Origin: Methanolobus vulcani
GTDB taxonomy: Archaea; Halobacteriota; Methanosarcinia; Methanosarcinales; Methanosarcinaceae
Length of the DNA: 64,000 nucleotides
NCBI RefSeq assembly: GCF_006546655.1
Contig: NZ_VIAQ01000012.1
Coordinates: 62,001-126,000, forward strand
Direction: 5' to 3'
The notes beneath the pieces are model-generated. The model saw only the letters and a program-made list of their open reading frames with translations, was not told where the DNA came from and made no database searches. This document shows positions 6,472-45,219 of the stretch, in pieces (position 1 is the stretch's first letter; every line of letters starts with the position of its first letter). Made by a program: the position numbers and the translations under genes.

Positions 6472-7271
6472 TGTATCACTTAGACAGAAGTAGGATACAA
6501 AGTATATAGAAGTTTTCAATAATTCATTTGAGGCTCAAATAAGCAGGAAATCTTGCTGGATCATTTTCGTAGTCAACCGCCATAGTTCAGATGAACACCT
6601 CATTATGATGATGAGTATAATGGCAATCTTTATATACGAAGAATATCATACTAAGTGTTGATGAGCGGGTTATCCTCTTTTTGACAATAACCCCCACTCC
6701 CCAACCCGCTCATACTCCACTCCATTTTTCTTACATACAATATCAAAGAAACAGATAGCTTAAGCTGTTTTTCATATATAAGTCTATAACTATAGACACC
6801 AGAAGTTATGATTTTATTGCACGTATGATGAAACATACTGAATCATACATTTGCTCAATAAAAATAACAGGCCACTTTTTTCTATTATGCTACACAATTC
6901 ACACTAAACAATACAACAATCAAAATAAAAACATATGATTATATTCCACGTATACATCCATTCATTTGAAGACAAAAGTTGCGAAACAATCATTTAATTA
7001 ATGGGAACAGATAGAATCCAAAAGCTTTGGAACAAGAAAACAAAATAAAAAGAAGCAGATAAACAAAACCAGGCAACATTACACACAAAAAATTACAATC
7101 TGATAATTATAAATTAAAATATAGCATATATAGCAAACATAATAACATAAATAGCGCATAATATATATTCCACCATATATAACAGATTACACATACTATG
7201 TTGTAAGCTATCTGGCCACTGGTTTTTTGACAAAATACAAAGCAACACTGAAGTATTAACCCAGAACAATA
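6472..7271. other. 800 bp AT-rich intergenic region
   Basis: No convincing protein gene lies here. A 61-codon minus-strand reading frame at 6651-6836 has no recognisable features and overlaps the hairpin described below. The region holds the promoter of the Lrp-domain gene, one candidate small RNA (6659-6732) and about 500 bp of very AT-rich DNA downstream of rfcL in which I see nothing definite. Confidence 0.6.
6659..6732 (+). ncRNA. Candidate small RNA with alternative hairpins
   Basis: A TATA element (TTTATATA, 6629-6636) sits about 26 nt upstream of an 11 bp perfect inverted repeat: ATGAGCGGGTT at 6661-6671 and AACCCGCTCAT at 6703-6713. Part of the left arm can pair instead with ATAACCC at 6687-6693, giving two mutually exclusive hairpins. 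A T-rich stretch (TTTTTCTT, 6725-6732) follows as a plausible terminator. There is no open reading frame of note on this strand. This is an inference from promoter, structure and terminator spacing; no known family was recognised. Confidence 0.4.
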
Positions 7272-42792: not shown

Positions 42793-42827
42793 GGAAGTTC
42801 AGTACAATATTGAATTTAGAAGTGATC

Positions 42828-43535
42828 ATGGTGAAACCTGCGAAAGAATTCCTTGACAGAGCGATTGAAGCAACCGTAGACCTTAATGACAAAGAGGCAT
42901 GCGAAATTGCATATGAAGCACTGAAACTTGGAATTGATACGCAATATCTTCTAGAGCATGGTTTTCATGCTGCACTCGCTTTAATGAAAGATATGTTCGA
43001 CGAGGGAAGGATCTATCTCCCGCATATGCTAGCTGCTGCAGAAGCAGTTGAAGCTGCTACCAAGGTTTTGATGCCGACATCCATAGAAAACACGCAAAAT
43101 TCTAAAGGTGTTGTGCTTCTTGGCACCATAGAAGGCGATATACATTCTATTGGTAAGGACATAGTTGGAACAAACCTTCGGATAGATGGCTATGAGGTCA
43201 TTGATCTTGGAGTGGATGTACCTGTGGAAACCTTTGTCGAGATGGCAATAAAATATAACCCGGATGTGATAGCGACATCCGCCCTGATGACAATTACAAT
43301 GACAAACCAATTGACACTTGAAGATAGTCTCAGGGACGCAGGTATCAGGGATAAATTGAAGACAATGATCGGAGGAACACCTGTTACACCCGATTGGGCT
43401 ACAAAGATAGGTGCTGATATATACGGAAAGGATGCATCCGATGCAATCAGAAAAATAAATTTAATTATGCGGCCTGAAAAAAAAGAAACAATGGCCGTTA
43501 GTAAAAATAAGTGTTATGAGAATGTTTGTTACTGA
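42828..43535 (+). CDS. Methyltransferase-type corrinoid protein (MtaC/MtbC/MttC-like)
   Basis: A 235-residue protein. Residues 1-85 form the helical cap (EFLDRAIEATVDLNDKEACE, YLPHMLAAAEAVEAA). Residues 93-210 form the B12-binding domain with the D-x-H-x-x-G motif GDIHSIGKDIV (His106 as cobalt ligand), VIDLGVDVP, SALMTITM and MIGGTPVT. Such proteins carry the methyl group from methylated substrates to coenzyme M in methylotrophic methanogenesis. The substrate (methanol, methylamines, sulfides) cannot be assigned: no methyltransferase gene of either type is adjacent. The ATG at 42828 follows AGTGAT. The tail beyond residue 215 is Lys/Asn rich. Confidence 0.9.
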   Translation: MVKPAKEFLDRAIEATVDLNDKEACEIAYEALKLGIDTQYLLEHGFHAALALMKDMFDEGRIYLPHMLAAAEAVEAATKVLMPTSIENTQNSKGVVLLGTIEGDIHSIGKDIVGTNLRIDGYEVIDLGVDVPVETFVEMAIKYNPDVIATSALMTITMTNQLTLEDSLRDAGIRDKLKTMIGGTPVTPDWATKIGADIYGKDASDAIRKINLIMRPEKKETMAVSKNKCYENVCY

Positions 43536-43622: not shown

Positions 43623-43811
43623 GCTGAAGAACCAGAACGCAGACAAAAATGAAAGCGTTTTTTTGGGAGAGATGATATTAGGAATGCAGAGGGAATCTGC
43701 CTGCGTTCTGTTATTTTGAGACTGTTTTGCGTTTTTCTCTTCAGCGTTTTTCCGATGAACACATCGTACCACCATAGTCAGCAAAACCTGGTCAAAGAGG
43801 TTTTGTGACCG
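43623..43811 (-). ncRNA. Candidate structured RNA with five helices
   Basis: Five perfect inverted repeats cluster here: CAAAACCT/AGGTTTTG (43782-43789, 43798-43805), CGATG/CATCG (43753-43757, 43762-43766), an outer pair GCTGAAGA/TCTTCAGC (43623-43630, 43738-43745), a nested CAGAACGCAG/CTGCGTTCTG (43633-43642, 43701-43710) and GCAGA/TCTGC (43686-43690, 43696-43700). A TATA element on the minus strand (TTTATATAT, 43833-43841) would start transcription about 26 nt on, near 43811. A 65-codon frame on that strand has no protein-like features. No known RNA family was recognised; the strand is inferred from the TATA box. Confidence 0.5.
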
Positions 43812-43985
43812 CACACCATAGTATCTTAAAATGATATATAAATATTTCTATATTGTAATATATTATGAGACTCATCATTATGAGATTTGGAGTTTGGAGA
43901 GAAAACAACCTAATTGCAGAATAAAATTAAAATGAGCGGGAAAAAAATACAATCAAAGTAAAAATCAGACAAAAAAGAAATTGAG

Positions 43986-44043: not shown

Positions 44044-45219
44044 TTAAAGCTCATTCACAAACGCTTCAATCCTTACCAGAGCCTCTTCAATTTCCTCTCT
44101 GGAAGTTGCATAGGAACATCTTAAGAAACCTGTGCCGGCTTCACCGAACACGCTGCCCGGGATTGTGACGACCTTCTGCTCGTTCATGAGGCGTTCTGCA
44201 AACTCCTCGGAACTTAGGCCAGTACTCTGGACACTTGGGAAAACATAGAATGCACCCTTTGGCTCGAAGCATTTGAGTCCGATCCTATTAAGGCCGCTGA
44301 CTATAAGATGGCGACGACGGTCGTAATCACGAACCATCTTTTCCATTTCATGCTTGCCGTTCTTCAGGGCTTCTACGGCACCTATTTGTGCTGTAATTGG
44401 AGCACAAAGCATTGAATACTGGTGTATCAGCATCATAGCACTGATGATCTTAGGAGATGCCATTGCATATGCCATCCTGAAACCGGTCATTGCGTATGCC
44501 TTGGAAAAACCATTCAGCAGGATTGTCCTGTCACGCATTCCTTCAAGAGATGAAAAGCATGTATGTCCACCGTTGTAGGTAAGACAGTCATAGACCTCAT
44601 CGGAAATTACCATGATATCGTGCTCACACACAACATCAGCAATAGCCTCAAGGTCAGCTTTACCCATGGTTGCACCAGTTGGGTTGTTTGGATAATTGAT
44701 AATAACTGCTTTGGTCTTTGGAGTGATAGCTGCTTCAAGTTCCTCAGCAGTGATCTTGAAATTGTTCTCAAGCTTTGTTGAAACTATTACAGGAACACCG
44801 CCTGCAAACATCACTGAAGGAACATATGCAACATATGATGGCTGGACCACAATAATCTCATCACCCGGATTGGTGATAGCACGTATAGCCACATCAAGAG
44901 CTTCACTTACACCGGAAGTAACAAGAATTTCATTATCGGGATTATAATTCACACCATACTTTGCAGCATAGTAATCTGCCAGCTCCTCACGAAGCTCAAT
45001 TAGACCATAATTAGAAGTATATGAGGTTTCACCACATTCAAGTGAGTGGATGCACGCCTCTCTTATGTGCCAGGGAGTCACATAATCCGGCTCACCTACA
45101 CCAAGGGAAATAACATCTTCCAGACCTGATGCAAGATCGAAGTAGCGACGAATGCCTGAAGGAGGCACCTTGTTCATAACATCAGCTACAAATTTAGAAG
45201 GGGTGCATGCTTTTCTCAT
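44044..45219 (-). CDS. Class I/II pyridoxal-phosphate aminotransferase
   Basis: A 391-residue cytosolic enzyme of the aspartate/aromatic aminotransferase group. Family marks are ISLGVGEPDYVTPWHI, NYPNNPTGATMGKADL, VISDEVYDCLTY and the PLP-binding lysine in LLNGFSKAYAMTGFRMAYA. The substrate may be aspartate, aromatic or branched amino acids. It lies 36 nt downstream of an Lrp-family regulator on the same strand, so it is probably regulated by amino-acid supply (inference). Confidence 0.92.
   Translation of the reverse strand: MRKACTPSKFVADVMNKVPPSGIRRYFDLASGLEDVISLGVGEPDYVTPWHIREACIHSLECGETSYTSNYGLIELREELADYYAAKYGVNYNPDNEILVTSGVSEALDVAIRAITNPGDEIIVVQPSYVAYVPSVMFAGGVPVIVSTKLENNFKITAEELEAAITPKTKAVIINYPNNPTGATMGKADLEAIADVVCEHDIMVISDEVYDCLTYNGGHTCFSSLEGMRDRTILLNGFSKAYAMTGFRMAYAMASPKIISAMMLIHQYSMLCAPITAQIGAVEALKNGKHEMEKMVRDYDRRRHLIVSGLNRIGLKCFEPKGAFYVFPSVQSTGLSSEEFAERLMNEQKVVTIPGSVFGEAGTGFLRCSYATSREEIEEALVRIEAFVNEL

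Follow-up and report, generated by a model that had tools for sequence, protein, structure and literature searches.

A conserved, structured small RNA gene predicted in Methanolobus, its promoter palindrome and its relatives

Results

Gene content and extent of the locus

The window, which is the whole 64,000-nucleotide stretch of a Methanolobus vulcani contig analysed here, carries on the minus strand at 43623-43814 what is, judged from sequence alone, a conserved structured noncoding sRNA gene of Methanolobus (type A). Its neighbours are an aminotransferase gene on the minus strand (44044-45219) and, on the other side, a corrinoid-protein gene on the plus strand (42810-43535); their names come from the translations and not from a family search. 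Among relatives whose flanks could be seen, the aminotransferase gene lies beside the RNA in 7 loci and the corrinoid-protein gene in 8. The features of the locus are:

43871-43884, unstranded: palindromic operator CTCATAATGATGAG with core TCATNATNATGA, possibly the 'cold box'
43835-43842, minus: TATA box TTTATATA, seen in the sequence; spacing constant in homologs
43623-43815, minus: RNA gene, type A, about 190 nt; interval conserved across 17 homologs
43777-43810, minus: helix P1, 5'-end hairpin GGUCACAAAACC / GGUUUUGCUGAC; 5 of 11 pairs double-changed, 78% of cells paired
43765-43773, minus: near-invariant GGUGGUACG, resembling ribosome binding sites of the genus; AUG next in many, not all, homologs
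43753-43766, minus: helix P2, hairpin CGAUG-UGUU-CAUCG; 91.8% of cells paired, 1 pair double-changed
43738-43745, minus: 5' arm of helix P3, GCUGAAGA, an 8-bp outer stem with 43623-43630; six modelled pairs 100% paired, two double-changed
43698-43710, minus: 5' arm of helix P4, CAGAACGCAGGCA, a long inner stem starting CAGAACGCAG; 8 of 12 pairs double-changed, 96.5% of cells paired
43686-43700, minus: inner 5-bp hairpin GCAGA-UUCCC-UCUGC, only partly conserved, competing with the end of the long P4 stem
43664-43696, minus: C-rich loop AUUCCCUCUGCAUUCCUAAUAUCAUCUCUCCCA, conserved and mostly unpaired in homologs; candidate antisense (anti-Shine-Dalgarno-like) region with a presumed pairing function
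43633-43645, minus: 3' arm of P4, UGUCUGCGUUCUG, ending CUGCGUUCUG; partner of 43698-43710
43623-43630, minus: 3' arm of P3, UCUUCAGC; partner of 43738-43745

From the conserved interval and the distance to the TATA box, the 5' end of the RNA is predicted at about 43812-43815 and the 3' end at 43623 or shortly beyond; covariance model R1 matches the window RNA at G000:C14:105623-105814. The initial annotation had proposed a multi-helix RNA of about 190 nt at 43623-43841, and every element that it described was found in its place. Its location and length stand, and its upper end has to be drawn in, because the RNA probably starts at 43812-43815 and the proposed interval covers the greater part of the TATA box. 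The minus-strand fold contains an outer pairing that extends to about 43823; it lies partly before the predicted start and lacks conservation. The minus-strand fold has an energy of -58.2 kcal/mol (z = -4.0), equalled by none of 200 dinucleotide shuffles. However, the fold of the plus strand is good too (z = -3.4), and therefore folding alone is weak evidence and gives no strand, which is given by the promoter.

Promoter and palindromic operator

The minus-strand TATA box that had been proposed for the RNA is present at the expected distance. From its start to the conserved start of the RNA there are 28 nt, a spacing kept exactly in the aligned homologs. Further upstream, the palindromic core TCATNATNATGA lies exactly 41 bp from the TATA box in 16/17 aligned homologs and keeps 10/10 letters in 16/17; the operator stands at -41 from the TATA box in most paralogs too. 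An operator score of ten letters was reached by 2 of 3000 random AT-rich 65-mers. In its own genome the core has 28 sites, compared with 4 for a reversed control, and many of the 28 fall inside ORFs. Intergenic core sites with a TATA box include those of the window RNA, of a small RNA III, of RNAs of type C and type 'ii' and of a small zinc-ribbon-like ORF, while the own-genome type B RNA has a near match to the core, TGATAATGATGA. We infer that the palindrome is a transcription-factor site.

The zinc-ribbon-like gene encodes a 52-aa protein (MKLVEKKCAMCGSPIYVYE...; L140, G000:C9, near 19177) and has an ortholog in L215, with the same operator as the window RNA. Its 5' leader contains GGGUUAUUGUC and its start region is GGUGGUACGAUG.

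Conserved helices

The pairings were examined in 17 homologs, aligned without structural information. Across the four helices 90.4% of cells are standard pairs, and compensatory changes on both sides occur in 16 of the 34 pairs, a result matched by 0/500 shuffles. There are 45 double-change cells, compared with 17.0±3.9 in shuffles and 6-12 when the partners are slid; the helices were drawn by hand on one aligned sequence, which favours the drawn pairs somewhat over the slid versions. Support is strongest for P4 and P3. P2 and P4 are also recovered by RNAalifold without any structure as input, and P1 holds well at its base and varies towards its upper part. Moreover, P1 and P4 recur in the type B copies with double changes of their own. 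The initial annotation had argued that the nested stems and the further hairpins (43777-43810 and 43753-43766) are hard to explain by chance, and had named stem-breaking substitutions without compensation in relatives as evidence that would count against an RNA. The covariation bears out the argument, and the comparison with relatives favours an RNA. The predicted fold, borne out by the aligned sequences, is a 5' hairpin, a small hairpin and a long closing stem (P3 and P4) capped by a large C-rich loop, most of it unpaired.

The columns of GGUGGUACG are near-invariant in alignments A1 and A2. No sense ORF is shared among the homologs, whose longest ORFs span 7 to 51 aa with no common frame, and a coding gene was ruled out because no reading frame is conserved.

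Distribution and searches against known families

A DNA search (BLAST) of 101 family genomes gave significant matches in the genome itself and in 15 others, all Methanolobus. The covariance model R1 was built from 17 sequences, 14 of type A and three tail-bearing copies (L015, L016 and L023). R1 or paralog matches occur in 26/27 Methanolobus genomes, most with at least 2 copies; the training sequences match by construction, and the second copies per genome are independent finds. Searching with R1 outside Methanolobus, in the same family, gave no credible homolog. One match in another genus (G022, E = 0.003) is marginal, has neither promoter nor motif and was put down to chance.

A dissimilarity to tRNA, RNase P RNA and SRP RNA had been noted in the initial annotation. 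The Rfam 15 search agrees: at the gathering score there is no family for the window RNA, and the only matches in the window are three tRNAs. In a lax search the best score was 9.9 bits where 60 are needed, that is, noise. Ten paralog and related loci were likewise without an Rfam match. The window RNA represents a new family, not yet listed, within the familiar class of archaeal intergenic sRNAs, and its promoter signature is sharper than usual.

Paralogs, their tails and small RNA III

The upstream operator, the paralogs and a complementary small RNA of the same window were absent from the first account of the locus. Two paralogs of the own genome, type B (C19:24818-24988, minus, L055) and type C (C16, near 257643, minus, L151), have the core and the promoter in common with the window RNA and add a 3' tail, GGAGUAUGAGC - hairpin - GGGUUAUUGUC; the type A RNA of the window is without it. 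A third kind, 'ii', has a different body and carries the promoter element and the tail of B and C. It was seen at L141 (G000:C13, near 76407), L101, L110, L117, L119 and L129; its 5' UCAACAAACA pairs with its 3' UGUUUGUUGA, and it has a CCCUCAG loop. The features of small RNA III in the window are:

6600-6614, unstranded: operator TCATTATGATGATGA of small RNA III, the same operator as that of the window RNA
6629-6636, plus: TATA box TTTATATA of small RNA III, seen in the sequence
6660-6724, plus: small RNA III, a hairpin of about 65-70 nt with a C-rich loop; its sequence complements the 3' tails of B, C and 'ii'

Small RNA III is encoded 37 kb from the window RNA and is near-invariant across Methanolobus (95-100% identical). 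Related sequences are present in 104/112 family genomes; outside Methanolobus many of them are related C-rich hairpins rather than clear orthologs. The predicted duplexes of III with the own-genome RNAs have energies of -49.7 (B), -51.7 (C) and -61.4 kcal/mol ('ii'), with z of -4.6, -4.2 and -6.1 compared with shuffles, whose own pairing is fairly strong (means near -29 kcal/mol). For type A there is no excess pairing with III (z = +0.8), so that the window RNA is without the complementarity of a sponge. Therefore, the sponge-like link is one of the paralogs and not of the window RNA.

Several candidates were set aside in the search for tails. The GGAGUAUGAGC...GGGUUAUUGUC motif was considered as the start of a downstream ORF; the frames differ and it belongs to the RNA tail. 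Matches of 36 nt to GGAGTATGAGC...GGGTTATTGTC, taken for further tails, proved from the positions of promoter and poly-U to be the antisense of small RNA III. A match to the tail pattern in a Bacteroidetes record (L120) lacks both promoter and RNA body and was ascribed to chance. The tail motif was not found in viral contigs, and in the neighbouring genus g14 it yielded small RNA III alone.

Some type B-like copies carry tandem repeats of ACAGGGUUAUUGUCAAA in their tails (L068 and L070, downstream of the RNA). L015 and L023 are near-identical tail-bearing copies on one contig (G097:C42), about 34 kb apart, which suggests a recent duplication. Many further C-rich hairpin small RNAs (UGAGCGGG...CCCCCACUCCCC...CCCGCUCA; L190, L194-L199, L201-L209) occur family-wide, often several per genome, and are a possible family-wide sRNA class.

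Discussion

The same operator stands upstream of family members in G072, a genome in one contig of 3,072,769 bp that we assume may be the M. psychrophilus cold-box strain R15; the best R1 match there is divergent (50.6 bits). The palindromic operator is the obvious candidate for the cold box. In M. psychrophilus, Li et al. (2015; PMC5378194) described nine conserved sRNAs that are induced by cold and have a 'cold box' upstream. As presented in the main text of that article, the R15 sRNAs are like the window RNA in that they belong to Methanolobus, are intergenic and highly conserved and have a motif upstream of their promoters; sequence, fold, family grouping, RNA-RNA pairing and mechanism are all absent from that text. 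Probably the regulon of the window RNA is this cold-box sRNA set, and we infer the identity of the operator with the published box. It might then be argued that the window RNA is merely one of these known cold-induced intergenic sRNAs and nothing further. The published set with its common upstream box and the operator before family members in G072 would fit such an argument. However, with what the main text leaves unsaid about sequence, structure, family and mechanism, the absence of the family from Rfam 15 and the divergence of the G072 match, we think it improbable.

An own TATA promoter, noncoding nature and conserved secondary structure are what an independent intergenic archaeal sRNA would have, and all were found. 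Such sRNAs are known from the same archaeal family in M. mazei (sRNA41, sRNA154 and sRNA162). The likeness to the window RNA is one of description, R1 finding no credible homolog outside Methanolobus, and sRNA154, unlike the window RNA, belongs to nitrogen regulation. Ribosome binding sites are reported to be masked by sRNA41 and sRNA154 (PMC5867862, PMC6560208). By analogy with these methanogen sRNAs, the window RNA may be a noncoding trans-acting regulator with its own promoter, whose C-rich loop would mask the ribosome binding sites of mRNAs, a proposal that we hold to be evenly balanced. The window RNA, its paralogs and small RNA III would be switched on together by a transcription factor at TCATNATNATGA, probably at low temperature. 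Pairing of the C-rich loop with the Shine-Dalgarno or start regions of target mRNAs could follow and would block or alter their translation. When exact complements of two conserved loop segments were searched in nine genomes, no match at a ribosome binding site recurred. One TTGGGAGAGAT match inside an apparent coding sequence recurs in seven genomes, which probably reflects a conserved protein; a few matches to GCAGAGGGAAT are shared by smaller sets of genomes.

Other explanations have to account for the same evidence. The position between two genes and the good fold of the plus strand would suit hairpins arisen by chance, or a terminator for the convergent corrinoid-protein gene, but covariation, the exact spacing of the promoter and the paralogs at other places in the genome speak against this, and covariation with promoter conservation effectively refutes it, leaving a probability close to nil. 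More is left to explain in GGUGGUACG, for which the antisense-loop model has no role. It could be the real ribosome binding site of a tiny ORF whose translation switches the fold, making the window RNA a dual-function or leader-peptide RNA. After GGUGGUACG the window reads AUG UGU UCA UCG GAA AAA CGC UGA (MCSSEKR, 43741-43764) at a plausible spacing, several homologs encode MCSSE(K/N)x-like peptides, and a small ORF has been reported for M. mazei sRNA154 (PMC11456600). Yet L012 and L014 have no AUG, L015 has an immediate stop, and L003, L004, L010 and L011 differ in frame and length, with no shared frame; the conserved letters are moreover explained by the hairpin GAUG/CAUC. We therefore give this reading little credence.

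Alternatively, GGUGGUACG might be what binds, with the C-rich loop secondary, so that the RNA would serve as a protein-binding scaffold or decoy, whether as part of an RNP or as a sink that takes up an RNA-binding protein or the 30S anti-Shine-Dalgarno. Indeed, no letters are better conserved in the A and B copies than GGUGGUACG and the [AG]U that follows it, which surpass those of the loop, and a simple antisense sRNA would need a smaller fold. Against it, the C-rich loop is conserved as well and is also found in small RNA III of the same regulon, and we know of no protein partner of the window RNA. On balance a scaffold or decoy seems rather doubtful.

Beyond the antisense role proposed for the window RNA lies the wider set. 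The tail added in B and C (GGAGUAUGAGC...GGGUUAUUGUC) could capture small RNA III, and the set may act as a cross-talking sRNA circuit in which one RNA is the sponge or partner of another; the tail-less window copy would act independently of III. The tails of B, C and 'ii' are like bacterial sRNA sponges in their complementarity to III; they differ in being archaeal and in being seen as complementarity alone, and the window RNA, with no such tail, differs altogether. We tentatively put forward, at somewhat less than even confidence, a genus-wide cold-responsive regulon in which one palindrome governs structured RNAs and a short sRNA captured by their tail, a self-contained sRNA-sponge circuit of which the window RNA is the tail-less branch.

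Structure, promoter logic and family are defined for few archaeal sRNAs, and the RNA set described here is traceable across about 27 genomes. Through the sharp operator an archaeal regulator of sRNAs might be identified, and the B, C or 'ii' RNA with III is a possible archaeal sRNA-sponge pair. Moreover, if the sets are the same, these RNAs would provide sequence and structure for the unexplained cold-box sRNAs of a psychrophilic methanogen.
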